A DNA stretch of 64,000 bases from Verrucomicrobiota bacterium. GTDB taxonomy: Bacteria > Verrucomicrobiota > Verrucomicrobiia > Verrucomicrobiales > DEV007. The first letter of the stretch is position 1. Every line of letters begins with the position of its first letter. The notes beneath the pieces were generated by a model. The model saw only the letters and a program-made list of their open reading frames with translations, had not been told where the DNA came from and did no database searches. The stretch covers positions 99,035-163,034 of the forward strand of contig JAGWVU010000003.1 in assembly GCA_018970725.1 (NCBI GenBank), read 5' to 3'. The position numbers and the translations under genes were made by a program. Shown here in pieces: positions 4,387 to 61,902 of the stretch.

Positions 4387-6381
4387 ATGATTCGCTGGAT
4401 TTGGATTCTCTTTGTGGTTGGTCCGATGAGCGCTCCGGCGGGATCCTTCCCCTTGCGGGTGGGGCCGCGGGCCGGACTTGAGGTGACGGAAGCGGACGGG
4501 GTTTGGACGATGAAGGTGACGGGGCCGAACCCGCATTTCTGGTTGAGCTCCATCCCGGCGGCGGCCACGCCCGGGTCCCACCCCATCCTCGGATTTGAAT
4601 ATTTTTCCACGGAACCGGTGCCGAAGCTCTTCGTGCGGGTGCCGCTGGCGGTTGGGGCGACCCATCTGCAGGCCGGAGCCCTGCCCATCGCGGAAGCATG
4701 GAAACCGTTTGCCATTGACCTGCGTCTTGCGAAGCAGCCCTTTGCGAGCGGTCCCGGAAAAGATCTGGCCATGATTCTGGGGCTGTCTCCCGGGGCCCGC
4801 CTCCACATCCGCAACCTGCAACTGCGGGCGGCCACCCCGGAGGAGGCCCGAGCTGAGGCGGAACGGGAGGTCATCCGGGAGGCCCGGGCGCGGGAAGCGA
4901 CCGAGTGGCTCGCCTCTTTGCGCCGGCCTTATCCGGGACGAATCCGCTCGGTGCGGGTCCGGGAAGCCACGATTGAAGTGGAGGCGGAGGTGAGCGGCCG
5001 GGTCCGCATCGATGGCGTCGTGGAGCCCGGAGGCGGGTTGATTCCCCGGTTCGCCGGGAAACGGGACCGGGCCGACGGGTGTTTTGAGATCGTCGATGCC
5101 TCCGGCCTTCCGCTCACGCCTCCGGCCTACGCGGAGGCTTGGGAAGGGCAGCGGAACCTGCCCGGACTGAAAGCCCGCGGGATCAAGGGACTGGGCGGGA
5201 TTCCGCTGAATCTGACGGAGAAGAGCGAAATCTTTGAGCTTGGGATCGAGCATGCCACGGTGAACATCGTGGTCAACAGCCTGCTGCAGCCTGAAGCGGC
5301 ACCGGGCTGGGAGGCCTGGGAGTTCGAGGGCAGGGTTCTGCATTTGCATACGGCCTATCTCCGGAGCCTTGACCACACGGTGCGCACGTTGTCCCGGAAG
5401 GGCGTGATCGTGAGTGCCATCCTGTTAGTCGGGAATCACCGGGATGCCGCGGGGAAACCGGACCGGCCCATGGTCCATCCGGAAGCGCTCGCGGAAGGGG
5501 TGTATTCCATGCCTGATCTGGTGAGTGCCGGAGGCACCGATCTTTACCGGGCAGTGATTCATCTTCTGGCGGAGCGTTATACCCGGGAGAACGGCGAATT
5601 CGGCCGGATTTCCAATTGGATCCTGCACAACGAAGTCGATCAGGCCGGCACATGGACGAACATGGGGGAGCAACCGCTGGCCCGTTACCTCCGGACCTAC
5701 CTCCGGTCCTGCCGTCTGGTGCACCAAACCACGCGCCGGTTCGACCCGCATGCCCGGGTCTTCATCTCCCTGACCCATCATTGGACCACGCCGGGGGATG
5801 GTCTCCAGACCTATCGAGTCCGGGATGTTCTGGAACTCTTTGCCGAGGCGGCCCGCTTCGAAGGGGATTTCGCTTGGGGCGTGGCGTATCACCCTTACCC
5901 CCAACCGATGACCCGTCCCGAAGTTTGGACCAACCCGGAGCGAACCGATTTCGAGGCCCCCCACATCACGCCGAGAAACATCGAGGTGTTGCCAGCCTAT
6001 CTGGCGCAGGAGAGGTTTCTTCATCGGGGCCGTCCGAGGGCGATTCTGCTTTCCGAGCAGGGGATCAACGCCGTCTCCCTCGAGCCCGGGGACCAGAGAA
6101 ACCAGGCGGCCGGTCTCGTCTACACGATGGAGCGGGTCCGCCGTTTGCCGGGGATCGAGGCCTTCCACTACCACGCCTATCGCGACGCTCCGGAGGCGGA
6201 GGGGGGACTGCTGCTCGGTTTGAGCAATCCGCAGTCCGGACACAAGCTGGCCTGGGAGGTCTATGCTGCGATCGGCACCGAACGGGAGCGGGAAGCTTGC
6301 GCCTTCGCGTGGCCGATCATCGGGATTTCCGGGCCGGGGGATGCGGCGTTGCAACTTCGACCGGTCAAACCCCGTCCTTAA
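4387..6381 (+). CDS. Secreted DUF5722-type, glycosidase-like protein
   Basis: A 664-residue exported protein. The ATG at 4387 begins a clear hydrophobic signal segment (MIRWIWILFVVG); the upstream in-frame ATG at 4345 would add a non-signal extension. Residues ~20-190 look like a beta-sandwich, carbohydrate-binding-like domain. The C-terminal ~440 residues look like a TIM barrel. Two glutamates are placed as in clan GH-A retaining glycosidases: ILHNEVDQ with Glu416 preceded by Asn, and ILLSEQG with Glu557. I assign DUF5722 from memory of the family pattern and infer polysaccharide hydrolysis; the substrate cannot be read. Its 3' end overlaps the convergent oxidoreductase gene by 17 bp. Confidence 0.65.
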   Translation: MIRWIWILFVVGPMSAPAGSFPLRVGPRAGLEVTEADGVWTMKVTGPNPHFWLSSIPAAATPGSHPILGFEYFSTEPVPKLFVRVPLAVGATHLQAGALPIAEAWKPFAIDLRLAKQPFASGPGKDLAMILGLSPGARLHIRNLQLRAATPEEARAEAEREVIREARAREATEWLASLRRPYPGRIRSVRVREATIEVEAEVSGRVRIDGVVEPGGGLIPRFAGKRDRADGCFEIVDASGLPLTPPAYAEAWEGQRNLPGLKARGIKGLGGIPLNLTEKSEIFELGIEHATVNIVVNSLLQPEAAPGWEAWEFEGRVLHLHTAYLRSLDHTVRTLSRKGVIVSAILLVGNHRDAAGKPDRPMVHPEALAEGVYSMPDLVSAGGTDLYRAVIHLLAERYTRENGEFGRISNWILHNEVDQAGTWTNMGEQPLARYLRTYLRSCRLVHQTTRRFDPHARVFISLTHHWTTPGDGLQTYRVRDVLELFAEAARFEGDFAWGVAYHPYPQPMTRPEVWTNPERTDFEAPHITPRNIEVLPAYLAQERFLHRGRPRAILLSEQGINAVSLEPGDQRNQAAGLVYTMERVRRLPGIEAFHYHAYRDAPEAEGGLLLGLSNPQSGHKLAWEVYAAIGTEREREACAFAWPIIGISGPGDAALQLRPVKPRP

Positions 6382-7432
6382 AGAGGCCGGCGGCACGCAG
6401 AACGGTCTCGTGGACGGCAATGTCGTGGGCGGCGTCCCATGCCAGCGTCTTTTCTCCCTTGGTCACGGCGGCAAGGTCGACGAATTCCCCGGCGTAACGG
6501 TCCTTGGAAACGTTCAATTGGAGCTTCTGGGTGCCCTTGACGAAATTCTCCCGGGGAGTGGTGAGGGAGAGGGTGACGAGTCCGGACTCGAGGGGGACGA
6601 TCTCCATTGCGCCGAGCGTGCCGGCCACACTGAAACGGCGCCGCGGCGTGCCAAAGGGATCGGCGTGGTTGCAGCGGATGGTGGCCGTCGCTTTGCCGTA
6701 GCCGAGCACAGCGAGTTGATTATCGGGAACGCCATCGCCGCCGGTTGGGGTGGAGAACCCGGTGACGTTGAGCGGTTTGCCGAGGATGGTCACCACCGCG
6801 TCGATCACGTGACAGGCGAGTTCGAACATCCCTCCGCCGGGCAACTCAGCCAGGGTCTTGCGCAGGTCTGGCGACGCCAGCTTGCCGATGGAGGCATCGA
6901 CCTCGGTGATTTCGCCGAGCCAACCCTCACGCACCGCGTGGAAGAGAAGCTCAAATGCGGGATTGTAGCGCAGCATGTAACCCATCTGCACCGTGAGATG
7001 GCGGGCCTCCGCGTCCAGACGCATCGCCTTGAACTCTGCATGGTGAATGGCTCCGGGCTTGTCGAGGTGCACGTGCTTTCCGGCCCTGACGCAACGAGCC
7101 GCCGTGGCGCAGGAATCGGCCAGGGTGGTCTCCACCGCCACCGCCTTGACGGTTGGGTCCCCGAGGAGCTGTGGCTCGGTGAGGACGGGAACGCCTGCGA
7201 ACGGTCCGCTGCGCCGGGCGGGATCCGGTTCCACCAGTCCGACCATCTCCCAGAGCTGCGGCAAGGAGCGGATCGAGGCCATCTTGCCGGCGGCGTGGGC
7301 ATGGCGGCTACCGATCTGCCCGATGCGAAGGGGCGGTGCTCCCGCAGCCCCGGAACTCCGGACGAGATGGGTAAGGAGAGCCGTGACGGAGAGTCGCGCG
7401 GCGGAGCGACGGGAGAGGGAGGAGACAGGCAT
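6365..7432 (-). CDS. Gfo/Idh/MocA family NAD(P)-dependent oxidoreductase, exported
   Basis: 355 residues. The N-terminus (RRSAARL followed by a hydrophobic stretch to ~residue 31) resembles a Tat or Sec signal. A Rossmann region follows with IGQIGSRHAH at ~37-46, and HVHLDKPGA near residue 120, the EKP-like motif of the family with Asp in place of Glu. The C-terminal half is the mixed alpha/beta substrate domain. Family members oxidise or epimerise sugars and cyclitols, and PVC bacteria encode many exported copies. The substrate is unknown. It is convergent with the DUF5722 gene and the two 3' ends overlap, which fits a carbohydrate role but does not prove one. Confidence 0.85.
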   Translation of the reverse strand: MPVSSLSRRSAARLSVTALLTHLVRSSGAAGAPPLRIGQIGSRHAHAAGKMASIRSLPQLWEMVGLVEPDPARRSGPFAGVPVLTEPQLLGDPTVKAVAVETTLADSCATAARCVRAGKHVHLDKPGAIHHAEFKAMRLDAEARHLTVQMGYMLRYNPAFELLFHAVREGWLGEITEVDASIGKLASPDLRKTLAELPGGGMFELACHVIDAVVTILGKPLNVTGFSTPTGGDGVPDNQLAVLGYGKATATIRCNHADPFGTPRRRFSVAGTLGAMEIVPLESGLVTLSLTTPRENFVKGTQKLQLNVSKDRYAGEFVDLAAVTKGEKTLAWDAAHDIAVHETVLRAAGLFKDGV

Positions 7433-7823: not shown

Positions 7824-10694
7824 ATGCTCCGTTCCCGCCCAGAACCGCCCGTTTGGACCGCGCTGCTGGTCCCGGCCATCACGCTTTTCCTTGGACCGGA
7901 AGGGGGTATGGCGGCGGGTGAACCGGAAGCGGTCCCGGAATCGTCCCATCGTCCGGTGGTGGTGAACCAGCGGGTGGAGAAAGTGGTTCCCCGGGCGGAT
8001 CTGCCGGACGGTTACCGGTTGGAGGTGGCGGCGTCCGCCCCGTTGGTCATGCATCCGATTATGGGGTGCCTCGACGATCGGGGGCGGCTCTTCATCGGGG
8101 ACGCGGTTGGGGTGAACTGGAACAAGGCGCAACTCGAGGCCAACCCGCCGAACCGGGTGTTGTTGTTGGAAGACGCGGACGGGGATGGCGCCTACGACAA
8201 GAGCACCGTCTTTGCGGACGGGATGACCTTTCCGCAAGGGGCCCAGTGGTTGGATGGAAGCCTTTACGTCGGGTCGCCACCCGGAATCTGGAAGTTGACA
8301 GACCGGGACGGTGACGGCGTGGCGGAGGAACGCAAGATGATCGTGTCCGGCTTCGATTACACCGGCAACGCAGCGGACGTGCACGGACCGTTCCTGCATC
8401 CCGGAGGCCGGCTCTATTGGTGTCACGGGAGGAAGGGATACCGCGTGGTGGACGCGACCGGCAAGGTGACCCACGAGGGAGCCAGTTCCGGGATTTGGAG
8501 TGCGCGGCCGGATGGCACGGAGGTGCAGTGGCACTCCCTGCTGGCGGGGGACAATCCAGTGGAAGTGGATTTCACGCCGGACGGAGAAGTGATTGGGGTG
8601 CAGAACATTTATTACAGCCAACCGAGGGGAGACACCTTGGTGCATTGGTTGGCCGGGGGAGTTTACGAACGGCCGGACATGATGAAAGTCCTCCAAGGCC
8701 TGCCCCGGACGATGGAGCGGATGCCGGTGATCCACAACTTCGGGCACGTGGCGGTGAGCGGGTGTTGCTTTTGGAAGAGCTTTCCGGAAACGGGGATGGA
8801 TGGCGTCCTGCCCTTTCTCGTCACCCATTTCAACACGCAACGATTGGTCCGCATGGACTTGATCCCGGAGGGATCGAGTTTCCGGACCCGGGAGAACGAA
8901 TTCCTCAAGATTCACGACCCGGACGTCCATCTCACCGATGTCATCGAGGCGGCCGACGGATCCCTGTTGGTGTTGGATACCGGGGGATGGTTCCGCATCG
9001 GGTGTCCCTCCAGTTTGATGGCCAAACCGGATCTGCTCGGAGCGGTTTACCGCATCCGTCCTTCGAAGCCGGTCAAGCCCGGATTCCGGGAGGCCTGGCG
9101 CGCCGCGTGGAAACCGCCAGGGGATTCACCGGGAAGCTGGCTGGCCGGATTGGCGGATGGAGAACCCCGGAGCAAGCTCCGGACCCTCGCCGCATTGGCC
9201 AGGAGCAACATCCGGGATGAGGCGGTTTCGCGCCGGATGCTGGCACTCTTCGCCGAGCCCTCCGACGCATCCCTCGAGCACGCCTTGATCTTCGCCGCCC
9301 GGCAGTGGCGCCTCGTGGACACGGTGGAGGAAGTGCAAGCGGGGGCGACTCCGCTGGCCTTGCGACGGCTCCTCACCGCATTCCAATCCGACGACCCGGC
9401 CCGGCAGGAAGCGGTCCGGGAAATCGCGCGGGGGAATCTGGAGTCGCCGGATGCGGCCTTGGCGCAAACCGCCTTGCGGGTGGCAGGCACCGATCCGGAA
9501 ACCGTGGGCCGGCTGTTGGGATGGCTTAGGGAGAGCGGCGTTTCTCCGGTCCGCTTGACCGCGATCCGCAGCCTCAGCGATGCCGGGACCGACGAACTGC
9601 TCACCGCGATGCTCTCGCATCCGGCGGCGGAGGTGCGCCGGTCCGGCTGGGAGTCCCTTGCCATGCGCCAGACCGTGTCGGCCCGGGAGGAGTGGATGGC
9701 GCCCTTGCGGCAGGCGTTGTCGGGTGCCGGTGCTCCTTCTCCGGTCCTTCTGGACGCGATCAAGAAGGTGAGATCGGCGGGTTTCGACCCCCGGCTCCAA
9801 GAGATTTCCAACGATCCGTCGCAGCCCACGGCGTTGCGTCTCAGGGCGTTGGACGCGATGCAAGCCCGGACGATGAGCCCGGCGATTTTCGATCTGCTGA
9901 CGCACGTCCTCTCTCGGGATCCATCGCCCTCCGCGCGGATTCAAGCGGCCACGATGTTGGGGAATGGCGGTCTCACGAGGGAGCAGTTGACCTCCCTGGC
10001 ACCGGCATTGGCCGGGGTCGGGCCGATTGAACTCAAGGAACTCGTGCGGTTGGTCCGCTCCGTGAAGGATCCGGGGATTGCCCGTTTGCTCGCGATCGAG
10101 ATGGCGCAAAACCCGGCGTTGGGCAGTCAGCAGGAAAGTGTCTACCGCACCCTCTTCAGCACCCAGGCGCCGGAGTTGATCGAGACCATCATCCTCCCTG
10201 CTTTGCGGCGGGCGGAGGACGGGACCGATCTCATGAAGCGTCGTTTGGGGCCTCTTGCCGACCGGGTGCGGGCCGTGGGGAATGCCGCGGCGGGGCGGCT
10301 TCATCTGGAGGCCGGCAAAGGGACTTGCACGGCTTGTCACAAGATCGGGTCCACTGGCCGGGCGATCGGGCCGGACCTTTCCAAAATCGGAGCCATCCGG
10401 ACCGAGCGTGACCTGCTGGAGAGCATTCTCTTCCCGAGCCACACCCTGGCCCGGGATTACGAGGCGCACGTGGTCGAAACCACCGGTGGGGAGACGCTCG
10501 CCGGAGTGATTCGCAGCCACACGGCCGAAGGTTTGCTCCTTGTGGACGCCTCGGGGCAGGAGCGAAACGTAAACCATGGTCAAATCCTCTCCAATACCGT
10601 CCTGCCCGTCAGCCTGATGCCGATGGGCCTCGATGCCACGATGAGCGAGCAAGAATTGATCGACATCGTGGCCGCCCTCCGATCCATGAAATGA
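7824..10694 (+). CDS. PVC-type propeller-HEAT-cytochrome c protein 1
   Basis: About 956 residues from the ATG at 7824, which begins just before a hydrophobic export segment; an in-frame extension back to 7620 lacks signal character. Residues ~45-410 form a beta-propeller of the membrane-bound dehydrogenase / L-sorbosone-dehydrogenase-like type, with repeated DGDGxxD motifs. Residues ~420-800 are alpha-helical HEAT-like repeats. The C-terminus is a c-type haem domain, CTACHK with Cys835, Cys838 and His839, and a downstream Met that may be the sixth ligand. Such proteins are confined mostly to Planctomycetota and Verrucomicrobiota and are thought to act in periplasmic oxidation during carbohydrate breakdown (inference). 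The stop overlaps the next start by ATGA, implying translational coupling. Confidence 0.85.
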   Translation: MLRSRPEPPVWTALLVPAITLFLGPEGGMAAGEPEAVPESSHRPVVVNQRVEKVVPRADLPDGYRLEVAASAPLVMHPIMGCLDDRGRLFIGDAVGVNWNKAQLEANPPNRVLLLEDADGDGAYDKSTVFADGMTFPQGAQWLDGSLYVGSPPGIWKLTDRDGDGVAEERKMIVSGFDYTGNAADVHGPFLHPGGRLYWCHGRKGYRVVDATGKVTHEGASSGIWSARPDGTEVQWHSLLAGDNPVEVDFTPDGEVIGVQNIYYSQPRGDTLVHWLAGGVYERPDMMKVLQGLPRTMERMPVIHNFGHVAVSGCCFWKSFPETGMDGVLPFLVTHFNTQRLVRMDLIPEGSSFRTRENEFLKIHDPDVHLTDVIEAADGSLLVLDTGGWFRIGCPSSLMAKPDLLGAVYRIRPSKPVKPGFREAWRAAWKPPGDSPGSWLAGLADGEPRSKLRTLAALARSNIRDEAVSRRMLALFAEPSDASLEHALIFAARQWRLVDTVEEVQAGATPLALRRLLTAFQSDDPARQEAVREIARGNLESPDAALAQTALRVAGTDPETVGRLLGWLRESGVSPVRLTAIRSLSDAGTDELLTAMLSHPAAEVRRSGWESLAMRQTVSAREEWMAPLRQALSGAGAPSPVLLDAIKKVRSAGFDPRLQEISNDPSQPTALRLRALDAMQARTMSPAIFDLLTHVLSRDPSPSARIQAATMLGNGGLTREQLTSLAPALAGVGPIELKELVRLVRSVKDPGIARLLAIEMAQNPALGSQQESVYRTLFSTQAPELIETIILPALRRAEDGTDLMKRRLGPLADRVRAVGNAAAGRLHLEAGKGTCTACHKIGSTGRAIGPDLSKIGAIRTERDLLESILFPSHTLARDYEAHVVETTGGETLAGVIRSHTAEGLLLVDASGQERNVNHGQILSNTVLPVSLMPMGLDATMSEQELIDIVAALRSMK

Positions 10695-13669
10695 AAGCGA
10701 TATCCCATCTCCTGATTTTGGTTGGAATCGGCGCCGCCCCGGCTGCCGACTCTTTGGTTTCGAAGACCACTTACTCCGAGGCCTATGGAAAAACCAAGCA
10801 TGACGTGACCGTTGATCCGGCCAAGGACCTCCCGCATTACCCGGCCGTGCCGGTGGCGGAAGCGGTCTCCACTTGGAAGGTCAAGCCGGGCTTCTTCCTG
10901 CAACTGGCCGCCAATGAACCGCAGGTCAGGGATCCCGTGGCCCTCTGTTTTGATGAACGGGGCCGGATGTTCGTCTGCGAGATGATCGATTATTCGGAGA
11001 TGCGCGATGTTTCGCCCCATCTCGGGCGGATTTCGGTGTTGGAGGATCGCGACGGAGATGGTGTGCACGAGACTTCGCAGGTCTTCGCCGATGATCTCCC
11101 CTGGCCGACCGGTCTGATTTGGGCCAATGGCGGGCTCTACGTGGGGGCCACGCCGGACATCTGGCGGCTAGAAGACAAGGACGGGGATGGCTGGGCCGAG
11201 GTGCGGACGCGGGCGTTCACCGGATTTGGAACCGGTCTCAAGCGGTTAAACGTGCAGGGCTTGCTCAACAGCTTTCAGTGGGGGCAGGACAACCGGGTTC
11301 ACGTGTTGGCCGGCGGAGGAAACCGGGGGCTGGTCACCTCCCCGCTGCGTCCCGAACTGCCCGGGCAGGAACTGGGAGGAAATGATTTTTGGTTCGATCC
11401 GCGAACCCATGAGTTCGGACTTGAGGCGGGCGGAGCCCAATATGGGATGAGCTTCGACGATTACGGCCGGAAGTTCGGTTGTTCCAATTCCGACCACTTG
11501 CAGTATTGGGTCCACCCGGGTGGTGGCTCCGGCCTGCCGTCGGCCCGGCAGAGCATCGCGGTGGATGGCGGGGCCGCGGAGGTCTTCCGGCTCAGTCCGG
11601 ATGAACCGTGGCGCATCATCCGGACCCGGTGGCGGATCGCCGGAACCGTGCCGGGAACGGTTGAGGGGGGCGGCCGGGTCAGCGGTTACTTCACCGGGGC
11701 CACGGGCACCACGATCTACCGTGGGGATGCGTATGGTCCCGGCTTCGTCAACAACAGCTTCACCGGGGATGCCGGAGGTCAGTTGATCCACCGCAAGATC
11801 ATCCGTCCCGCGGCGGACGGCGTCAGTCTTACGGGTGAACGGCCGGAGGATGAGCGTGGGATGGAATTTGCCGCGAGCCGGGATACCTGGGTGCGGGTGG
11901 TGAACTTCGCCAACGCGCCGGATGGCTGTCTCCATGTCTGCGATATGTATCGCGAAGTGATCGAGCATCCGTGGAGCATTCCGGATGAGATCAAGCGCCA
12001 TCTGGACCTCAATCACGGAAACGATCGCGGAAGGATTTACCGGATTGTCCCTGCCGGAGGGGCCCCGCGGATCGGTCAGTCCGTGAACCTGGCGGGCGCA
12101 ACTCCCGCCGAACTGGTGGCCCTTCTGGAACATCCCAATGGATGGCATCGCGACACCGCGCACCGGCTCTTGTTCGAGCGTCAGGATGCGACGGTGGTTC
12201 CCGCCTTGGAATCCCTCTTGGAGAAGGGCGGGCCGGCGGCCAAACTGCATGCGCTCGGGGTGTTGCATGGTCTCGGCGGTCTCCGGGAAACGGCGTTGCT
12301 TACTGCCCTCGGGGATGAGGAGCCGCTGGTCCGCGAACGTGCGATCGAGTTGGCCGCCCTCCTCCCGCAACCCGGGGAAGCGTTGCAGGCTCAATTGACT
12401 TCCCTCGCCGCCGATGCGTCCCCCCGGGTGCGCTTTCAACTGGTTCTCGCGCTTCGTTCCTGGCCGTCCCGCGAGGTCTTGCTGCAGCTGGCGCTTCGTG
12501 ACCACGCGCACCCGTGGATCGCTCCCGCGATTCTCAGCCATGACCCGGGAGACCTTTCGCGGCTTCTGTTGGATCCGTTCACCAAGGATCCTAGCCTGGC
12601 GGCGGAGGCCGCGCCGTTCGTCGCTCGTTTGTGCGAAGTTTGTGCCGCCACGGAACCGGAGAAGTTGATTTCCTTTCTCGCCCAAGGCGAACCCAACCCG
12701 CTCTGGATGAAAGGGTTTGGCGAGGGCTTGCGCCGGGCCAAGCGGTCCCTCAAGGAGGTGGATCGGAAGAAGAAACTGGCCGGGGTGTTCGCCGCCGCCG
12801 CCCAGCGGGCGCTCGATCCCAACGCCTCCGTCAGCATAAGGACGGGGGCTCTGGAGATTCTTGGGATGGCTCCCGACGAGGTCTGGCGCCAACCGGTGGA
12901 ATCGGCGTTGGCCGACCGCAAATGTCCGGAGATCCAGGGTGCGGCCTTGAATCTTCTGGCCAGCCGATCCGGTGGGGAAGCCGTCCGGATGGTCGTCGGG
13001 CACTGGGGGGATTACGAAGCCGCCGGGACCCGGGTTGCGGCAATCGATTGGTTGATGAGTCGGGCGGATCGCCTGCCGGCGCTGCTGGAGGCCGTGGAGA
13101 AGGGGGTGATCCCCGGTGAAGCCTTCAGCGCGGGCCAGTTGCAAGCCGTGTTGCGCCATGCGGATGCCAACTTGGCGGGCCGGGCCCGGCTGGCACTTGC
13201 GGCATGGATTCCTCCCTCGCGCGCGGAGGTCATCTCAAAGTATGGCGAGTCGGTCCTTGCCAAAGGGGATTTCGCCAAGGGCAAGGCGCACTTCCAACAG
13301 CGCTGCCTGACGTGTCATCGGGCGGCAGGAGAGGGGTTTCAGGTCGGGCCCGACCTGGTTACGGTGAAGACCAAGGGACGCGAGGCGTTGCTCACGGCCA
13401 TTTTGGATCCCGGCAAGGAAGTGGCCGCGCAGTATGTCTTTTACACCGTCAATACCAAGGAGGGGGAAACGGTCGCGGGATTGATCACGGAGGATCAAGC
13501 CAAGACCATGACCCTGCGGATGCCCGGTGGCTTGGAGCGAACCCTGGAGCGCTCGGCCATCAAAGGAAGTTCGTCGGTCGGCTCGAGCCTCATGCCGGAA
13601 GGGCTCGAAGCCGGGATGACGCCACAGGACATGGCGGATCTCCTCACGTTCATCGAACAGCTTCCATGA
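10691..13669 (+). CDS. PVC-type propeller-HEAT-cytochrome c protein 2
   Basis: 992 residues, with a short signal peptide (residues 1-19), a propeller domain (~60-450, including EDRDGDGVHE and EDKDGDGWAE), a HEAT-repeat middle (~455-840) and a C-terminal c-type haem domain, CLTCHR with Cys872, Cys875 and His876 followed by GPDL. Its architecture parallels its upstream neighbour, but local sequence is well diverged, so this looks like an old duplication or a functional pair. It begins inside the stop codon of the upstream gene (ATGA) and ends in the same way with the ceramidase-like gene, so three products are probably made from one message. The substrate is unknown. Confidence 0.85.
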   Translation: MKAISHLLILVGIGAAPAADSLVSKTTYSEAYGKTKHDVTVDPAKDLPHYPAVPVAEAVSTWKVKPGFFLQLAANEPQVRDPVALCFDERGRMFVCEMIDYSEMRDVSPHLGRISVLEDRDGDGVHETSQVFADDLPWPTGLIWANGGLYVGATPDIWRLEDKDGDGWAEVRTRAFTGFGTGLKRLNVQGLLNSFQWGQDNRVHVLAGGGNRGLVTSPLRPELPGQELGGNDFWFDPRTHEFGLEAGGAQYGMSFDDYGRKFGCSNSDHLQYWVHPGGGSGLPSARQSIAVDGGAAEVFRLSPDEPWRIIRTRWRIAGTVPGTVEGGGRVSGYFTGATGTTIYRGDAYGPGFVNNSFTGDAGGQLIHRKIIRPAADGVSLTGERPEDERGMEFAASRDTWVRVVNFANAPDGCLHVCDMYREVIEHPWSIPDEIKRHLDLNHGNDRGRIYRIVPAGGAPRIGQSVNLAGATPAELVALLEHPNGWHRDTAHRLLFERQDATVVPALESLLEKGGPAAKLHALGVLHGLGGLRETALLTALGDEEPLVRERAIELAALLPQPGEALQAQLTSLAADASPRVRFQLVLALRSWPSREVLLQLALRDHAHPWIAPAILSHDPGDLSRLLLDPFTKDPSLAAEAAPFVARLCEVCAATEPEKLISFLAQGEPNPLWMKGFGEGLRRAKRSLKEVDRKKKLAGVFAAAAQRALDPNASVSIRTGALEILGMAPDEVWRQPVESALADRKCPEIQGAALNLLASRSGGEAVRMVVGHWGDYEAAGTRVAAIDWLMSRADRLPALLEAVEKGVIPGEAFSAGQLQAVLRHADANLAGRARLALAAWIPPSRAEVISKYGESVLAKGDFAKGKAHFQQRCLTCHRAAGEGFQVGPDLVTVKTKGREALLTAILDPGKEVAAQYVFYTVNTKEGETVAGLITEDQAKTMTLRMPGGLERTLERSAIKGSSSVGSSLMPEGLEAGMTPQDMADLLTFIEQLP

Positions 13670-15057
13670 AACCGGGGCTCATGTGGCTCGCCTGCCTGCT
13701 CGCGGGAGTCCTGCTGACGGATACCCGGGCGGGTTGGCAGGTCGGGGTGGCCAAAGCGGATATCACGCCCACGGAGCCCGTGCCCCTGGCCGGTTACAGT
13801 GGCGCGGCGCGGATGCACGTCCGCACCGATCATCCCATCTGGCTCAAGGCCCTGGCGATCCGTCCGGACGATGGGCCGCTTGCCGTTCTGGTGACGGCGG
13901 ATCTGGTGGGGCTGAGCACGCGGATGGTGGAGCGGATCGTCAGGGACGCCGCCGCCCGGGGCGTTTCCCGCGCGGGCCTCGTGTTGAACTCCTCGCACAA
14001 CCACAGCTGCCCGGTGACGGAGGACGTCCTCTGGCTCTACTATGAATTCACCGCGGAGCAGACCGCCGCCTGTGAGCGCTACACGGAACGGGTTTACTCT
14101 CAATACGACGCCGTGATTGCCGGGGCCATCGCGGACCTGGGACCGGCGGAGCTGTCGTTTGGCCAGGGGCTGGCCGGGGTCGCGGTGAATCGGCGCCGTG
14201 CGCGGGGCCCGGGAACGCGCCAGTTCGGCGGGCAGGTGGATCAGGATGTCCCGGTCATTGTGGCGCGGTCAGGCGACAAGTTGAGGGCGGTGGTTTTCGG
14301 GTATTCCTGCCATACCACCGCCTTGGGTGGGTTGAGTGTCAATGGGGATTATGCGGGGTTCGCCCAGCTCGAACTGGAGGAACGGTATCCGGAAGCCGTG
14401 GCCTTGTTTGTGCAGAATTGTGGAGGGGACGCGAACCCGTTGCCACGGATCCGGGGGAACGATCCGGGGGCGGACGCGGCCGCCCTCGCCCTGGCAGCGA
14501 ACTACGGACGTATTCTGGCAGAGGCGGTGAGCCAGACCCTGACGGCACCGCTGCGTCCTCTCCCCGCCACGTTGAGTTTGGCGATGGGCGGCACGAAACT
14601 GGCCTTGGAGCCCGGGTTGCCTCTGGAGGAACTGAGGGAACGGGTCCCGCAAATGAGCGGTCTTCCCAAGCGGGCTTTCAACCACTTCATCCGGCAATAT
14701 GAGACGGAGGGAGGGTTGCCTGGGGAAGTGGAGTATCCAATCCAGGTCTGGCGCTTCGGGCCGGAACTTACGTTCATCGCCCTGACCGGGGAAACGGTGG
14801 TCGACTACAGCCTCCAGTTGAAGGCCCGGTATGGATGGGAATCGACCTGGGTCTGCGGTTACAACAACGACCTCCTGAGTTACATTCCGTCGCGGCGCGT
14901 CCTCCGGGAAGGTGGCTACGAAGGAATCACCGGGATGTATGAATACGGACACCGGGCGCCTTACACCGATGACGTGGAGCAGAGGATCCTCACCGAGGTG
15001 GACCGATTGATCAGGGGGCCCGCCCCGCCGTCGGGAGGCGGAGCGGGCGGTCAGTGA
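13666..15057 (+). CDS. Ceramidase-like (neutral/alkaline non-lysosomal ceramidase N-terminal fold) exported protein
   Basis: 463 residues. The ATG at 13666 overlaps the preceding stop and opens a signal peptide (LMWLACLLAGVLL). The family start GWQVGVAKADITP is clear, as is the zinc-ligand-like segment NSSHNHSCP. At the place where true neutral ceramidases have GDVSPN with the catalytic Ser, this protein has GGDANP, so the nucleophile appears to be missing. It is also shorter than ceramidases, which usually exceed 650 residues. It is common in PVC genomes; the reaction is unknown and the name should not be taken as activity. It is the third member of the coupled unit 7824-15057. Confidence 0.8.
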   Translation: MKPGLMWLACLLAGVLLTDTRAGWQVGVAKADITPTEPVPLAGYSGAARMHVRTDHPIWLKALAIRPDDGPLAVLVTADLVGLSTRMVERIVRDAAARGVSRAGLVLNSSHNHSCPVTEDVLWLYYEFTAEQTAACERYTERVYSQYDAVIAGAIADLGPAELSFGQGLAGVAVNRRRARGPGTRQFGGQVDQDVPVIVARSGDKLRAVVFGYSCHTTALGGLSVNGDYAGFAQLELEERYPEAVALFVQNCGGDANPLPRIRGNDPGADAAALALAANYGRILAEAVSQTLTAPLRPLPATLSLAMGGTKLALEPGLPLEELRERVPQMSGLPKRAFNHFIRQYETEGGLPGEVEYPIQVWRFGPELTFIALTGETVVDYSLQLKARYGWESTWVCGYNNDLLSYIPSRRVLREGGYEGITGMYEYGHRAPYTDDVEQRILTEVDRLIRGPAPPSGGGAGGQ

Positions 15058-28137: not shown

Positions 28138-29583
28138 ATGCGGATTTCATGGGTCGCGTCGCTTTCCATCCTCCTGCCCGGCGCGGGTGCCGGGGTCGTT
28201 TCGGCGGCAGAGGGCCCCGGGTTGCGGGCCGGTGCAGCGACGAGCAACATCACCCCGGATCTGGGGGGCGAGATCATCGGTGGTTTTGCACCGTATCCCT
28301 CCACAAACATCCACGATGAATTGCACGCCCGGTGTCTGGTGCTCGATGATGGCAGGACGAAACTGGCCCTCGTGGTCTGCGATTTGCTCGGCCTGCACCG
28401 GACGGTTTCCTTGGAAGCACGGGCCCGGATTGAGGAGGCAACGGGGATTCCCGCCGCGAATGTTCTGATCTCCGGGACGCACACCCACTCCGCGACCAGC
28501 GCGATCGGCGGTGCGGTGCGCCAATACGTCTCGGACCTCGAGCTGAACGATTACCAGAAATTTGTCGTCCGGCGGATCGCGGACGGCGTGCGCTGTGCCA
28601 TGAACCATCTGCGCCCAGCGGAAATCGCTTTTGGAAGCGTCGAAGCGCCGGAGCATGTGCATATCCGGCGCTGGTTTCTCAAAGAGGGGAGAATGCCGCC
28701 GAACCCGTTCGGGCAGATCGACCAGGTGAAGATGAATCCCGGGGCGGGGAATCCGGACCTTGTAAAACCTGCCGGGGAACCGGACACGACGCTCAGTTTC
28801 ATCGCGCTGCGGGAACCCGGAGGCCGGATGATTTCCATCTACTCCGCGTATTCGTTGCATTACGTGGGCGGGGTTAACGGGGCCGACGTTTCGGCGGATT
28901 ACTTCGGCTGTTACGCGGAGGCCCTGAAGCGGTTGCTGACGGATAGCCGGGAGGGACCGCCCTTTGTCGCCATGATGGCGAACGGGACCAGCGGGGATGC
29001 CAACAACATCAACTTCCGCAATCCGCAGCCGCGCAAGAAGCCCTACGAACAGATGCGTTTCGTGGCGGAAGATTTGGCGGCCAAGGTGCATGGGGCTTTG
29101 AACGGGGTGGAGTGGCGGAAGGAGGCCCAGCTCGGGGCCCGCTATCGCGAGTTGCCGATCGCTTGGCGCAAGATTCCCGCGGACTTGCTCCAGTGGGCCC
29201 GGGAAACCGAGGCCAAGTCCCTCCCGCTCCCAGGGGGCGGGGCCAACCTGCCGCTGGCTTACGCGGGCAGGGTGCAACGGCTTGCCCAAGCCAGCACGGA
29301 GACGAAAACTCCGGTGCAGGTGCTCCGGATTGGCGACATCTGCATCGGCACCACGCCCACGGAGACTTTTGCGGAGACGGGGGTGGAGTTCCGCGGGCGA
29401 AGTCCTTTTCCCCATTCGTTTATGGTGGAGCTGGCGCACGGCTACTATGGCTACATGCCGACGCCCCGGCACTTTGCCCTCGGTGGGTATGAGACCTGGC
29501 CCGGAACGAACAACCTTGAGCCGGAAGCCTCTGTCAAAATGATGACCGCGCTGCTGGAGATGGCGGCCGAATTGAAGCCATGA
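28138..29583 (+). CDS. Ceramidase-like exported protein 2
   Basis: 481 residues from the ATG at 28138, which opens a signal segment (VASLSILLPGAGAGVVSAA); an ATG at 28111 adds nine residues. The zinc-ligand-like motif is GTHTHSATS. Where true neutral ceramidases read GDVSPN, this protein reads SGDANN, so the catalytic Ser is absent as in the copy at 13666. Its C-terminal region (GEDE-type GTTPTETFAETG and GYYGYMPT) matches the same PVC family. Coupled by ATGA to the CocE-type hydrolase, so the two products likely act on one substrate. The reaction is unknown. Confidence 0.8.
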   Translation: MRISWVASLSILLPGAGAGVVSAAEGPGLRAGAATSNITPDLGGEIIGGFAPYPSTNIHDELHARCLVLDDGRTKLALVVCDLLGLHRTVSLEARARIEEATGIPAANVLISGTHTHSATSAIGGAVRQYVSDLELNDYQKFVVRRIADGVRCAMNHLRPAEIAFGSVEAPEHVHIRRWFLKEGRMPPNPFGQIDQVKMNPGAGNPDLVKPAGEPDTTLSFIALREPGGRMISIYSAYSLHYVGGVNGADVSADYFGCYAEALKRLLTDSREGPPFVAMMANGTSGDANNINFRNPQPRKKPYEQMRFVAEDLAAKVHGALNGVEWRKEAQLGARYRELPIAWRKIPADLLQWARETEAKSLPLPGGGANLPLAYAGRVQRLAQASTETKTPVQVLRIGDICIGTTPTETFAETGVEFRGRSPFPHSFMVELAHGYYGYMPTPRHFALGGYETWPGTNNLEPEASVKMMTALLEMAAELKP

Positions 29584-31235
29584 AATTCCCAGTGCTTGTT
29601 TTGTCCGTGCTGGTGGCGGTGGCGGCCCAAGCCAAGCCGCTTCCCCCGTTGGATCTTGGCGAGGTCAGCGAGGAGCAGGCCTGGATTCCGATGCGCGATG
29701 GCGTCCGGCTTTCCGCCTATCTTTACCGGCCGCGGGGCGATGGAAGATGGCCCGTGCTTTTCGAGCAGCGTTACGCGGACATCACCGGTTCCTCCACCCG
29801 GAAGAACGCGGCCACGCTCGCGGCCCGGGGTTACGCGGTGGCCATGGTCAGCTTTCGGGGGGCTCAGGAGAGTGAGGGGACTTACCAAGGTTACCGGGCC
29901 CTGGCTTGGGGGGAACAACAGGATGGCTACGACGTTTGTGAGTGGCTCGCCACACAGCCCTGGTGCACCGGCAAGGCGGGCACGTTCGGCAGCTCCCAGG
30001 GCGGCTTTGCCCAGAACTTTCTCGCCGTGACCCGCCCGCCCCATCTGGTCTGCCAGTATATGGTGGATACCGGACTCAGCCTTTTCCATGAGGGGTATCG
30101 CATCGGAGGCGTGACCCGGCCGGGCCGGTTCAAGGATTTCGCAGCCAATTGCCGTCGTCCGGCGGATAACGAGGCTCTCCTCGAAGAATGGGATCGCCAT
30201 CCGGATTATGACGATTATTGGCGGGCGGAGGATTGTGCCCTGCATCTGGAAGCGATGGATGTGCCCTGCTTCACCATCGGCAGTTGGTATGATTTCATGG
30301 TGCAGGGGAGCGTGGCCAGCTTTACCGGGCGCCAGCATCATGGCGGTCCGGGGGCGCGGGGACGGCAGTGGCTCCTCCTGGGACCGTGGTTGCACGGCCG
30401 GCTGAACAAGGGAAACAAGGTCGGGGAACTCCTTTACCCGGATCGGGCGGTCTGGCCGGAAGTGGATCACATGGTGCGCTGGTTCGACCACTGGCTTAAG
30501 GGAACCGACAACGGGATCGAGAGGGAACCCGCGGTGCGCTATTTCGTCATGGGGGCGGCGGGTGAGCCCGGTGCGCCCGGGAATGAATGGCGCGAGACGG
30601 TCGACTGGCCGTTGGCGCTGGCACCAAGTTCCTTCTATCTCCACCCGGACGGAGTTCTTTCCGATCAGCTCCCGGCTCCTGCCGCCGGAGGAACCCGGTT
30701 TGCGTCGGACCCCATGCACCCGATGGAAATCCCGGGCAGAGGATTCCCGGGGGCGGCGGATGCCCGGGCTTTCGAGGCCCAAAAGGAAGTTCGGACCTGG
30801 ACCACGGAGCCGTTGGAGGAGCCCATGGAGTGGACCGGAGAGGTTTCCGCCGACCTCTGGTTGACGTCGACAGCGCCGGACACCGACCTCATTGTGCGGG
30901 TCAGCGATGTCTATCCGGATGGACGGAGCCTCTTGCTGATGGATTATCCGATGCGGGCGCGCTACCGCAAAGGGTGGGAGCAACAGTCCCTTCTGGTTCC
31001 TGGGGAGGCGGCCCGGCTGCGCTGGCACGTGGGGTGGACCAGCATGATCTTTGCGCCGGGGCACCGGATCCGGGTGACGGTAGCTAGTAGCGGAGCGCCC
31101 CTCTACGAGCCCAACAATCAGACCGGTGGACCGCAAACCCGCGATTGGCTCAAGGAAAGCCGGACCGCTACCCATACGATCTGGCACGAGGCCGGGCGGG
31201 AATCGCGCCTCGTGGTCCCGTTGCGTCGTCCTTGA
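29580..31235 (+). CDS. CocE/NonD-type alpha/beta hydrolase (S15 peptidase family)
   Basis: 551 residues with a signal peptide (1-18). The alpha/beta hydrolase domain occupies ~30-300, with the nucleophile elbow GSSQGG (Ser139), MRDGVRLSAYLYRP near the start and FRGAQESEG. A C-terminal beta-sandwich (~320-551) is typical of X-Pro dipeptidyl-peptidase/CocE enzymes. These hydrolyse acyl esters, amides or proline dipeptides; the exported location and the coupled ceramidase-like gene suggest an ester or amide of a complex molecule. The start ATG overlaps the upstream stop. Confidence 0.88.
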   Translation: MKFPVLVLSVLVAVAAQAKPLPPLDLGEVSEEQAWIPMRDGVRLSAYLYRPRGDGRWPVLFEQRYADITGSSTRKNAATLAARGYAVAMVSFRGAQESEGTYQGYRALAWGEQQDGYDVCEWLATQPWCTGKAGTFGSSQGGFAQNFLAVTRPPHLVCQYMVDTGLSLFHEGYRIGGVTRPGRFKDFAANCRRPADNEALLEEWDRHPDYDDYWRAEDCALHLEAMDVPCFTIGSWYDFMVQGSVASFTGRQHHGGPGARGRQWLLLGPWLHGRLNKGNKVGELLYPDRAVWPEVDHMVRWFDHWLKGTDNGIEREPAVRYFVMGAAGEPGAPGNEWRETVDWPLALAPSSFYLHPDGVLSDQLPAPAAGGTRFASDPMHPMEIPGRGFPGAADARAFEAQKEVRTWTTEPLEEPMEWTGEVSADLWLTSTAPDTDLIVRVSDVYPDGRSLLLMDYPMRARYRKGWEQQSLLVPGEAARLRWHVGWTSMIFAPGHRIRVTVASSGAPLYEPNNQTGGPQTRDWLKESRTATHTIWHEAGRESRLVVPLRRP

Positions 31236-50962: not shown

Positions 50963-53323
50963 GTGGAAGATCGTGAAATCAAGGGAAGGCACTGGTTTGC
51001 CGTCGGCGTCATCGGACTCGCTTTCCTGGCGGGCGCCCTGACCCGTCGACCAGGCGGGGCGTTCCTCTCGGAGGTTCCGCCTGATTTTGGCCGGGAGATC
51101 GAGCCCGTCTTGGAGTCGCATTGTTACGATTGCCACGGGGACGGTGCTTCCAAGGGTGATCTGGCTCTTGACCAATTCGCCGGCCCAGCTGAACGCCTCC
51201 AGGCCCGGGCCCTTTGGGAGGGGGTGCACCACAATATCGAAGCGGGGCTCATGCCGCCTCCGGGAGATCCGCCGCTTCCGGAGGCTGCGAAAACCAGACT
51301 GCTGGCTTGGATTGAGCGGGAGGTGTTCCGTCTCGACCCTCGGAAACCGGATCCGGGAAAGGTGGTGATCCGGCGCCTCAACCGTCAGGAATATCGCAAC
51401 AGCATCACGGAGCTTTTCGGTGAGGTATCCTTTGATCCAGCGGCCAATTTGCCTCCGGACGATACCGGATACGGTTTCGACAACGTCGGCGCGGTGCTCT
51501 CGATGTCGCCGGAGCTGCTGGAGAAGTATGTTCTGGCGGCGGATCGGATTCTGTCGGAGGTCTTCCGGATCCGTCCGCCGGCTCCGGAAGTCTTGGGCTT
51601 CGAAGCGGAGGAGCATTTCCGTGGGGTGCAGCATGCCTCCCATGGAACGGGTAGCCTGGCCAGGACGGGAACGGTGGGGCTCAAGCTCCCGGTGAAGCGG
51701 GACGGGGAGTATCGGATCCGGATTTTGGCGGCGCAGGATCAGGCGGGGGACGAACCGGCGAAACTCGGGATCAAGATCGGGGATTCCACCCGGCATACGT
51801 TTGCGATTGAAGCCGAATCCTCCCGTCCCCGGATGGTGGAATTTCCAGTCGGGTTGCGCCGGGGCGAGCAATGGCTGGAGATGGCCTTCCTCAATGATCA
51901 TTATGATCCGAATTATCCGGATCCGAGGCGTCGGGACCGCAACCTGCACATCCACCGCGTGGATCTGGTGGGCCCCGTTGCGGTGGCGCCGCCGCCACCG
52001 GGTCCGGCGCACGAAGCGATTTTTTCGACCGGCGGTGCCGGCTCGGAGCGGCAGCGGGCGGAGCGGATTCTGGCCGCCTTCGGTCGGCGTGCCTGGAGGC
52101 GGACCCTGACGGCCGCGGAGGTCGCCCGGTTGATGGGGATTTATGAGATGGCCCGGGGGCGGCAGGAGGGCTTCGAGGTGGCGGTGGTTCTGGCCATCGA
52201 GGCCGCGTTGGTCTCACCGAAATTTCTCTTTCGCGGGGAGGGGATGGATGCTGAGCCGGGTGAATCCGGGGTGGTGGCCCTCGGGGAGGTGGAGTTGGCC
52301 GCCCGCCTTTCCTTTTTTCTCTGGAGCGGTCCTCCGGACGATCATTTGTTGAGGGTGGCGGAGGAAGGGCGGCTCCGGGCGCAATGGCGCACCGAAGTGA
52401 TCCGGATGCTGGAAGATCGGCGGGCCCGCGCCCTGACGGAGAATTTTGCAGGACAATGGCTGCAGTTGCGCAATCTCGATCTGGTTGCCCCGGATCGGAA
52501 GACCTTCCCGGCTTGGAACGATCGGTTGCGCGCCGCCATGCGGTCGGAGACCGAGGAGTTGTTCCAGTCGGTATTCGCGGGGAATCGGAGCGTCTTCGAG
52601 TTTCTCGACGGGGGTTTCACGTTCCTCAATGAAACGCTGGCCCTTCACTACGGGATCGACGGGGTCAAGGGCGACGCCTTCCGGAGGGTTGCGCTTCAGG
52701 GGGAAGCCCGCCGTCAACGGGGCGGACTGCTCACCCACGCCAGCATCCTGACCCTGACCTCCCACCCGACCCGGACCTCACCGGTGAACCGCGGAAACTG
52801 GGTTTTGGAAAACATTCTGGGGACGCCTCCGCCGCCTCCGCCGCCAAACGTGCCGTTGCTCGAGGCGAGCGCGAGGAAAGCGGTCAACGGCACCTTGCGA
52901 GCGCGTTTGGAGGCGCACCGGGATCTGCCGGCCTGTGCCAACTGCCATGCGCGGATGGATCCCATCGGGTTGGCGATGGAGAATTATGACGGCATTGGCG
53001 CCTGGCGGGAAACGGACGGGGCGGTGCGGATCGACCCGTCCGGGCAGTTGGCCGGGTCGGGCCGGTTTGAGAACATGGAAGGATTGAGGAGGTTGCTCTT
53101 GGAGAGCCACCAGGATGCTTTCGTGAAGTCCCTGTCCTCCTCGCTGCTCAGCTACGCTCTCGGTCGCGGCCTCGAGTATTTCGATAAGCCCGCCCTCACC
53201 GGAATTCAGGAAAGAGTCAACCGGAGCGGGGGGAGGGCCCATGAACTCATCTTTGCGATTGTCGACTCGATTCCCTTTCAATCGAGGCGTCCGGTAGGAA
53301 CCAGAGGTGCGGGTGGCCCCTGA
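50963..53323 (+). CDS. DUF1592-family planctomycete cytochrome c protein
   Basis: 786 residues from a GTG at 50963; a membrane-like segment (WFAVGVIGLAFLAGAL) follows the basic start. An N-terminal haem site CYDCHG (Cys54, Cys57, His58) is followed by domains matching DUF1587 (~115-180), DUF1595, DUF1592 (~430-560), DUF1588 with a second CANCH (~660) and DUF1585 at the C-terminus. These proteins are secreted and presumed to act in oxidation of complex substrates. They usually pair with a DUF1552 protein; none is adjacent here. Upstream is NIPSNAP; pyc begins 55 bp downstream. Confidence 0.85.
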   Translation: MEDREIKGRHWFAVGVIGLAFLAGALTRRPGGAFLSEVPPDFGREIEPVLESHCYDCHGDGASKGDLALDQFAGPAERLQARALWEGVHHNIEAGLMPPPGDPPLPEAAKTRLLAWIEREVFRLDPRKPDPGKVVIRRLNRQEYRNSITELFGEVSFDPAANLPPDDTGYGFDNVGAVLSMSPELLEKYVLAADRILSEVFRIRPPAPEVLGFEAEEHFRGVQHASHGTGSLARTGTVGLKLPVKRDGEYRIRILAAQDQAGDEPAKLGIKIGDSTRHTFAIEAESSRPRMVEFPVGLRRGEQWLEMAFLNDHYDPNYPDPRRRDRNLHIHRVDLVGPVAVAPPPPGPAHEAIFSTGGAGSERQRAERILAAFGRRAWRRTLTAAEVARLMGIYEMARGRQEGFEVAVVLAIEAALVSPKFLFRGEGMDAEPGESGVVALGEVELAARLSFFLWSGPPDDHLLRVAEEGRLRAQWRTEVIRMLEDRRARALTENFAGQWLQLRNLDLVAPDRKTFPAWNDRLRAAMRSETEELFQSVFAGNRSVFEFLDGGFTFLNETLALHYGIDGVKGDAFRRVALQGEARRQRGGLLTHASILTLTSHPTRTSPVNRGNWVLENILGTPPPPPPPNVPLLEASARKAVNGTLRARLEAHRDLPACANCHARMDPIGLAMENYDGIGAWRETDGAVRIDPSGQLAGSGRFENMEGLRRLLLESHQDAFVKSLSSSLLSYALGRGLEYFDKPALTGIQERVNRSGGRAHELIFAIVDSIPFQSRRPVGTRGAGGP

Positions 53324-57902: not shown

Positions 57903-59363
57903 TCAGGCCAGCAGATCCCGGACGACATGGCCGTGGACGTCGGTCAGGCGGAAATAGCGGCCTTGGAATCGGTAGGTCAGGCGTTCGTGATCGATGCCGA
58001 GGAGATGCAGAATGGTGGCTTGGAAGTCGTGGACGTGGACCGGACGGTCCACCGCATTGAATCCCAGATCGTCCGAGGCTCCGTAGGAGATTCCGGGTTT
58101 GACGCCGCCTCCTGCCATCCACACGGTGAACGCGTAAGGGTGGTGATCCCGCCCCCAGCGCGGGCGGTTTTCCAGATTGCCTTGGATGAACGGCGTGCGC
58201 CCGAACTCGCCGCCCCAGATCACGAGGGTCTCGTCCAAGAGCCCCCGCATCTTTAAGTCCTTGATCAAGGCGGCGCTCGGCTGGTCGGTGTCGCGGCACT
58301 GTGTATAAAGCTCGGTGGTGAGGCTGTTATGCTGGTCCCAACCGGCGTGCATGCACTGCACGAAGGGAACTCCGCGCTCGACGAGGCGTCTGGCCATGAG
58401 GCAGTTGTAGGCAAAGGTGCCCGGTTCCCGGACCTGAGGACCATACATCTCCAAAACATGCTCCGGTTCCGAGGAAAGGTCCGTCAGTTCCGGCACGGAC
58501 GATTGCATGCGATAGGCCAGCTCGTATTGCGCGATCCGGGTGAGGATCTCCGGGTCCCCGCTCGTTGCGAACTTCGCCTGATTCAGTTCGGCCAGGTCGT
58601 CGAGCATTCCGCGCCGCAAGGGGGCGCTGATGCCCTCCGGATTGGATAGGTAAAGCACCGGGTCCCGGCTTCCGCGGAATTTCGAGCCTTGGAAGCGGGA
58701 GGGAAGAAAGCCCGAGCCCCAGTAGAAATCATAGAAAATCTGACCGCAAGTGGTCCCCTTGCTCACGGAAGTCATGACGACGTAACCGGGAAGGTCCTCG
58801 TTGGGAGAACCAAGACCATAGTTCAGCCAGGCTCCGAGGGCGGGACGTCCCGGGAGTTGCGCACCGCTCAGCATGAAGGAGATGGCCGGCGCATGGTTCA
58901 CCGCGTCCGTGTGAAGGCTCTTCACGAAACACAGGTCGTCCGCCACGGCACCGAGGTGCGGCATCAACTCGCTCACCCAGGCCCCGGAGGACCCGTGTTG
59001 GTGGAACGGTTCGACCGGCTGCAGCATGAGCTTTCCGGAGGGGTCGCCGGTCATCGTGCTGAAGCGTTTGCCACCGAGATATTCCTTCGGCACCGGTTGG
59101 CCGTGGAGCCGGGTCAGCTCCGGTTTGTAGTCGAAGAGATCGACGTGTGTCGGGCCCCCGTTTTGGAAGAGATAGATGACCCGTTTGGCCCGTGCCGGAT
59201 GATGCGGCGCCGCACCGGATTCACGGCCCAGCAATCCGGACAGCGCGGCGATTCCGAGTCCGGTGGCGGACTTTCCGAAGAACTGGCGCCGGTTGACCGC
59301 AAGCTGGGCCTCGCGGATGGGGGATGGCGCATCGTCGCGCAGCAGTTGCCAGGCGGGCTTCAT
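57903..59363 (-). CDS. DUF1501 sulfatase-like Tat-exported protein
   Basis: 486 residues with a Tat motif (NRRQFFGKSATG) after ~24 residues. The fold is alkaline-phosphatase/sulfatase-like: YLFQNGGPTHVDLFDYKP near the start, HAGWDQHNSL, IWGGEFGRTP and a late GRDHHPYAF. The usual Cys/Ser nucleophile of sulfatases is not visible where expected, so activity is uncertain. It starts within the stop codon of the DUF1549/DUF1553 cytochrome gene (ATGA), the standard pairing for this PVC system. Confidence 0.88.
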   Translation of the reverse strand: MKPAWQLLRDDAPSPIREAQLAVNRRQFFGKSATGLGIAALSGLLGRESGAAPHHPARAKRVIYLFQNGGPTHVDLFDYKPELTRLHGQPVPKEYLGGKRFSTMTGDPSGKLMLQPVEPFHQHGSSGAWVSELMPHLGAVADDLCFVKSLHTDAVNHAPAISFMLSGAQLPGRPALGAWLNYGLGSPNEDLPGYVVMTSVSKGTTCGQIFYDFYWGSGFLPSRFQGSKFRGSRDPVLYLSNPEGISAPLRRGMLDDLAELNQAKFATSGDPEILTRIAQYELAYRMQSSVPELTDLSSEPEHVLEMYGPQVREPGTFAYNCLMARRLVERGVPFVQCMHAGWDQHNSLTTELYTQCRDTDQPSAALIKDLKMRGLLDETLVIWGGEFGRTPFIQGNLENRPRWGRDHHPYAFTVWMAGGGVKPGISYGASDDLGFNAVDRPVHVHDFQATILHLLGIDHERLTYRFQGRYFRLTDVHGHVVRDLLA

Positions 59364-61828: not shown

Positions 61829-61902
61829 GGGCAAGTCACTTCAACCACGACGGCACCCCTCCGATTCTTGCGTGGAAGCCCATCGTGGTCTCCCGGGGCC
61901 GG

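Follow-up and report, generated by a model that had tools for sequence, protein, structure and literature searches.

Organization of the P1-P2-P3 locus

Three genes, here called P1, P2 and P3, lie head to tail in the window, by which we mean the whole stretch of 64,000 nucleotides that was analysed. P1 and P2 encode predicted exported proteins in which a beta-propeller is followed by HEAT repeats and a CxxCH haem domain, and P3 encodes a predicted exported ceramidase-like protein. The genes are joined by two 4-base ATGA overlaps, for which the reading frames were checked. A Gfo/Idh/MocA oxidoreductase gene is a conserved neighbour of P1-P2 within the genus and lies outside the operon. In the following, G000 denotes the window's genome and G001 and G002 its congeners.

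6365 to 7432, minus strand: Gfo/Idh/MocA oxidoreductase gene, divergent from P1, kept in G001 and G002
7824 to 10694, plus strand: P1, propeller-HEAT-CxxCH protein, predicted exported, 956 aa (TIGR02604, TIGR02603, PF23500)
10691 to 10694, plus strand: P1 stop and P2 start overlapping in ATGA, as they also do in G001 and G002
10691 to 13669, plus strand: P2, propeller-HEAT-CxxCH protein, predicted exported, 992 aa (TIGR02604, TIGR02603; signal peptide MKAISHLLILVGIGAAPAADS assigned by eye)
13666 to 13669, plus strand: P2 stop and P3 start overlapping in ATGA; G002 has this overlap in front of its P3 remnant
13666 to 15057, plus strand: P3, ceramidase-like protein, predicted exported, 463 aa (Ceramidase_alk, 31.4 bits; match to 2zws)

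An earlier, sequence-only reading of this DNA had given these coordinates and frames and the ATGA motifs at 10691 and 13666, all of them exactly. It called P1 and P2 giant, which is generous for proteins of about 1000 aa; the domain order that it described holds. The start codon of P1 is taken to be the ATG at 7824, as in that reading, and is provisional, since P1 orthologues align from about residue 28 on. Overlaps of 4 bases occur at 4 of the 24 same-strand junctions in the window's gene call, two of them being the P1-P2 and P2-P3 junctions, and thus the ATGA overlaps by themselves are nothing unusual. The sequence-only reading had taken them to mean that the products are made in fixed proportion; such an overlap allows coupling and leaves the ratio of the products unfixed. 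Each of the three genomes sampled from the genus has the P1-P2 overlap, at a protein identity of 73-80%. A promoter scan 5' of P1, which has low information value for Verrucomicrobiota, gave nothing above chance, and Rfam and tRNA scans of the window gave no matches.

P1 and P2 have diverged within a named haem protein family

Both proteins exceed the curated cut-offs of TIGR02604 (147.1 bits for P1 and 359.8 bits for P2, cut-off 122.2) and TIGR02603 (107.3 and 143.7 bits, cut-off 68.15). Pfam searches add PF23500 (116 bits in P1, 345 bits in P2) and, in both proteins, a HEAT_2 match between the propeller and the haem domain. Each carries a single CxxCH motif, CTACH at residue 835 in P1 and CLTCH at residue 872 in P2. 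The sequence-only reading had suggested a complex with undescribed substrate and partners; TIGR02604/TIGR02603 proteins are, however, a named family with tens of copies per such genome, and the window's genome holds 39 TIGR02604 stretches in roughly thirty proteins. The domains are arranged as follows.

7998 to 9068, plus strand: P1 beta-propeller (DUF7133), residues ~59-415, with two DxDGDG calcium-type loops (residues 117 and 160)
10278 to 10685, plus strand: P1 haem domain (TIGR02603), CxxCH at residues 835-839, predicted axial Met932 (NCBIfam and Met alignment)
10856 to 12061, plus strand: P2 beta-propeller (DUF7133), residues 56-457 (PF23500, 345 bits; AlphaFold model)
12104 to 13255, plus strand: P2 HEAT/ARM-like alpha-solenoid, residues ~472-855 (HEAT_2; modelled helical repeats)
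13265 to 13660, plus strand: P2 haem domain (TIGR02603), CxxCH at residues 872-876, Met968 in SLMPEG (NCBIfam, motif)

The propellers of P1 and P2 are homologous (hhalign probability 99.8%) and the end domains share 31-38% identity, which together with the domain matches bears out the earlier description of two parallel but diverged proteins. In a tree the propellers form separate, long-diverged clades with their own invariant residues; nearly every sampled propeller shares structural residues and the two DxDGDG calcium-type loops. Both haem domains align with that of Kustd1711 (PDB 7ZS0). In P1, Met932 is paired with its C-terminal haem ligand, Met292, and Met968 of P2 lies in the matching SLMPEG motif; the haem of both proteins is predicted to be His/Met-ligated.

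The AlphaFold model of the P2 propeller reaches a pLDDT of 79 and finds weak propeller matches, for example the luciferin-regenerating enzyme 5d9b, and the helical repeats of the P2 solenoid are modelled mostly at pLDDT >85. The P1 propeller is modelled at moderate to low confidence (pLDDT 64) and the whole P1 model has a pTM of 0.43, thus we place little weight on its fold matches. Neither propeller profile matched a solved structure by sequence, and fold searches with the propeller models returned weak matches only, from which no active site was assigned.

P3 is related to neutral ceramidases

The Ceramidase_alk score of P3 (31.4 bits) is slightly under the Pfam gathering cut-off of 32.1, and P3 matches no NCBIfam model at all, hence also not the neutral ceramidase equivalog. 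A profile built from P3 and its relatives matches the neutral ceramidase 2ZWS with an E-value of 4.5e-18. The putative zinc ligands of P3 are His111, His113, His216, Glu376 and Tyr406, all invariant in eight aligned relatives. The zinc ligands His97, His204, Glu411 and Tyr448 of 2ZWS align with His111, His216, Glu376 and Tyr406 of P3. At the position of the GxxSPN serine P3 has Asn257, as do all eight rows of the alignment, and the C-terminal domain of neutral ceramidases is absent. We therefore call P3 ceramidase-like and not a ceramidase. With its intact zinc site and the 2ZWS profile match, the earlier assignment of P3 as ceramidase-like is upheld; its description as a hydrolase fold was loose, since P3 is kin to the zinc-dependent neutral ceramidases and not to the alpha/beta-hydrolase fold.

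P3 carries a signal peptide and its reading frame is intact. A plasmid search with P3 found only distant matches, haloarchaeal and other. The window's genome has three further P3-like coding places (E up to 1e-30). At 28138-31235 in the window, a second, distant ceramidase-like gene, which scores 45 bits, above the Pfam cut-off, shares an ATGA overlap with an S15/CocE-type peptidase or esterase gene.

The trio is private to one genome and P3 is decayed or absent in the sampled congeners

To survey conservation, 387 genomes of the order were searched with strict orthologue thresholds, one search each for P1, P2 and P3. Orthologues were found in 56 (P1), 62 (P2) and 48 (P3) genomes; P1 and P2 occur together in 48 genomes and all three genes in 26. 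P3 lies beside P2 in just one of these 26, the window's own genome, a count that rests on draft contigs, which may hide cases, although many of the contigs are long. The idea of a conserved three-gene operon is thus rejected, and the sequence-only reading, which had made its proposal depend on the trio being conserved outside its own genome, fails on this point.

One contig carries P1 and P2 within 4 kb of each other in G133 and in three genomes of the window's genus, four in all; in 44 of the 48 genomes holding both they are apart or on different contigs. Around P2 orthologues 80 loci of named genomes were inspected, and P1 adjoins P2 only in L091 (G002), L161 (G133) and L163 (G111), with gaps of 50-300 bases in the latter two. 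The only trace of a P3 orthologue beside P2 in these 80 loci is a remnant in L091.

Both congeners have the P1-P2 ATGA overlap of the window's genome. In G002 the P2 stop also overlaps an ATG; behind it lie a start that resembles a signal peptide and, dispersed, fragments of P3 (residues 170-181 and 385-460).

L078:4342-4744: P3 remnant in congener G002, with ATGA start, signal-peptide-like stretch and P3 pieces

In the sequence of this one metagenome-assembled genome P3 is decayed, apparently by internal deletions, and in G001 no P3 is left. The ATGA and the remnant in G002 place the arrival of P3 before the split of G000 and G002, and the decay in G002 together with the loss in G001 indicates that the genus is able to live without P3.

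Several observations concern the surroundings. The Gfo/Idh/MocA gene that neighbours P1 has counterparts, 63-64% identical, no more than 10 kb away from P2 orthologues of three Chthoniobacteraceae MAGs (L092, L093, L096). A gene named by eye as hemB (porphobilinogen synthase) often adjoins P2 orthologues (L084, L085, L087, L142, L155), and the left end of the window holds hemB and a glycogen phosphorylase-like gene. The recurrence of hemB near P2 orthologues and in the window suggests that the site of P2 may be ancestral.

Ceramidase-like and propeller-HEAT-haem proteins are repeatedly fused or paired

Several relatives of P3 sit in open frames whose length by far exceeds that of a ceramidase, and this clue led to a set of fusions in which a ceramidase-like domain, a DUF7133 propeller, HEAT repeats and a CxxCH haem domain follow each other in a single chain of 1300-1900 aa. 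At least 19 single-chain ceramidase-propeller ORFs occur in at least 17 Verrucomicrobiota genomes of the families f1, f2, f3, f4 and f9 (loci L175, L176, L203, L213-L223, L225 and L226, and L177, L180 and L224). The CxxCH is in view in 18 of the 19, among them a chain whose start is cut by the contig end (G022); the remaining chain (G181) leaves its contig before the motif. Pfam and NCBIfam models confirmed the composition in four chains. In one of these four, from G008, Cytochrom_C and not TIGR02603 is the model that the haem domain matches. G172 has a further ceramidase-cytochrome chain, split by a stop codon.

Ceramidase and cytochrome genes are also adjacent pairs in G008, G010, G039, G084, G531 and G623. 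Two pairs share an ATGA, in G010 with the cytochrome first, as in the window, and in G531 with the ceramidase first. In G010 a second haem protein is encoded upstream of the coupled pair, so that a trio-like arrangement is present there, built of other family members. In the cluster of G010 (L212:5935-15424), genes for a haem protein, for a secreted protein whose signal is TAT-like and which matches nothing in Pfam, and for a P2-like haem protein accompany the ATGA-coupled ceramidase-like gene.

A fully supported branch divides a tree of 52 ceramidase-like domains, and the 25 cytochrome-linked ones are all among the 33 rows on one side of it, a proportion that is not a rate because sampling favoured long frames. 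P3 is on the other side of this branch, with 18 standalone ceramidase-like domains, and its own branch is long (0.47 vs 0.11-0.33 in its clade). With the exception of the G010 partner, which joins P2's own side, the linked partners fall into two clades of the cytochrome tree, both inside a larger group that also holds P2; one of the two is placed next to the P2 clade with moderate support (86/76). Since the linked ceramidases found all belong to another clade than P3, the link in the window arose separately, and the fusions and pairs support the trio by analogy only. The recurrence of fusions and ATGA pairs is nevertheless good evidence for a joint action of the two protein types, and a ceramidase-cytochrome link specific to the window's genome is ruled out by the fusions in relatives. 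In the literature on the propeller-HEAT-haem family we found no description of a ceramidase-cytochrome fusion. Within the papers searched, the recurrent fusion thus appears to be undescribed, and it is a more interesting result than the trio.

Discussion

We tentatively propose, with a confidence that falls just short of even, that P1 and P2, two PVC-type haem proteins, form a lineage-specific export unit to which P3, a ceramidase-type zinc amidohydrolase, was attached later, and that the three would work jointly outside the cytoplasm. All three proteins would be made with signal peptides and act beyond the cytoplasm. The zinc site of P3 probably cleaves an amide bond in a lipid- or sugar-linked substrate, and the propellers of P1 and P2 would bind a ligand and process it, with a saccharide or the P3 product as the likeliest candidate. 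The HEAT solenoid would hold the C-terminal His/Met haem, which may take up electrons and pass them to the respiratory chain. This proposal draws on the families and ligands of the three proteins, on the retention of the P1-P2 overlap in the three genomes sampled from the genus, on the fusions in at least 17 genomes of at least five families together with the ATGA pairs in G010 and G531, and on the activity of Lac161_ORF7 (PMC5342196) and the haem potential of Kustd1711 (PMC11791136). Against it stand the otherwise standalone occurrence of P3's ceramidase clade among the sampled members, the decay of P3 in G002 and its absence in G001, the separation of P1 and P2 in 44 of 48 genomes, and propellers that lack a solved sequence relative and give weak fold matches. 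The sequence-only reading had envisaged an oxidation-hydrolysis complex; the same protein types are indeed fused or coupled elsewhere, but the exact trio is private, and we infer the oxidation only from the haem domain.

P3 might instead be a neutral passenger: having landed behind P2, this ceramidase-like gene would be read through without any shared function. A P2-P3 neighbourhood unique among the 26 genomes with all three orthologues, the loss or decay of P3 in both congeners, its long branch and the commonness of 4-base overlaps all fit such an origin. We consider it somewhat unlikely, as the zinc ligands and reading frame of P3 are intact, the overlap predates the split of G000 and G002, and the same protein types have been fused or coupled many times elsewhere.

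For P1 and P2 themselves, other readings concern the propeller. The propellers could be glycoside hydrolases and not oxidases, with the haem serving electron transfer to another step or sensing. Lac161_ORF7 from a Chthoniobacter-like organism, which has the same domain order, hydrolysed lactose with a Km of 1.8 mM when purified after heterologous expression (PMC5342196), and conserved Asp/Glu residues are present in P2-side propellers. The activity comes from a single report, Lac161_ORF7 is likened to P1 and P2 by domain order, no glycosidase motif was assigned in the propellers, and the invariant haem domain would be left unexplained; we therefore regard this as quite improbable. We give very little credence to PQQ-dependent sugar dehydrogenases of the soluble glucose dehydrogenase (GSDH) or AA12 type. 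The fungal AA12 pyranose dehydrogenase also joins a propeller to a haem domain (PMC6881789). Yet the propellers show no sequence match to GSDH or AA12 structures, none of these is among the top fold matches, and no PqqE scores above cut-off in the genome, although PQQ could be taken up from outside the cell. PQQ is thus an unlikely propeller cofactor. Equally far-fetched in our judgement is the idea that P1 and P2 are not enzymes and serve as scaffolds of the membrane-coat-like kind, in which a propeller likewise precedes a solenoid and which has been reported from PVC bacteria, including this phylum (PMC2799638); the likeness is one of architecture. The P2 model has the propeller-then-solenoid order, and fold matches include Vps18, IFT-A and adaptor proteins, but these are low-scoring (TM 0.12-0.26 of the query), and the signal peptides and covalent haem site speak for redox work in the periplasm.

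Beyond the export unit proposed for this locus, Verrucomicrobiota might generally possess an undescribed periplasmic enzyme for hydrolysis and oxidation, composed of a ceramidase-like zinc hydrolase and a PVC-type propeller-HEAT-haem protein and often made as one chain. It would cleave an amide and oxidise the group thus released, with the haem accepting the electrons; the trio would then be a second, independent assembly from other subfamilies. We offer this as speculation and regard it as rather unlikely. PVC bacteria encode tens of propeller-HEAT-haem proteins each, and a partner domain of known chemistry, fused to them in many genomes, makes their function testable, by an amide substrate and then by haem reduction with the product. 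A joint job, if true, would account for the many ceramidase-like genes kept in PVC bacteria.

Comparison with known systems

P1 and P2 share the full propeller-HEAT-haem order of the PVC-type heme-binding CxxCH proteins (TIGR02604 plus TIGR02603; DUF7133) and pass both family cut-offs. Differences are that P1 is diverged, with a weaker and split TIGR02604 match, and that a tandem ATGA pair is unusual, with P1 and P2 also adjacent in genus g37. The only member with a reported activity found in the literature searched is Lac161_ORF7, described as a beta-galactosidase and likened to P1 and P2 by the same three domains in the same order; unlike for P1 and P2, no ceramidase partner was reported (PMC5342196). 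For freshwater Verrucomicrobia, the authors of a survey used context to argue for a role of other planctomycete-type cytochromes in carbohydrate use; the propeller-HEAT-haem family is not treated there by name (PMC5615132). Planctomycete-type cytochromes also occur in the window, as a DUF1501 gene ATGA-coupled to PSCyt1/DUF1549/DUF1553 (57903-61834) and as a PSCyt1-PSD chain carrying a CBM60 domain (50963-53323).

The nearest solved haem domain is that of Kustd1711, a dihaem cytochrome of the anammox bacterium Kuenenia (PDB 7ZS0), whose His/Met haems have calcium-tuned potentials of about +350 mV and whose ligand Met matches P1 (PMC11791136). In contrast to P1 and P2, Kustd1711 has two haem domains and a "nose" domain, without propeller or HEAT repeats. 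With neutral ceramidase (PDB 2ZWS, 4WGK; PF04734) P3 shares the similarity of the N-terminal domain and the His/His/Glu/Tyr zinc ligands, but it has 463 instead of 646 aa, lies under the Pfam cut-off, lacks an equivalog match and has Asn257 in place of Ser. The single-chain ceramidase-DUF7133-HEAT-cytochrome proteins link the same two protein types as the locus described here, although in one chain, with the ceramidase first and drawn from the other ceramidase clade.
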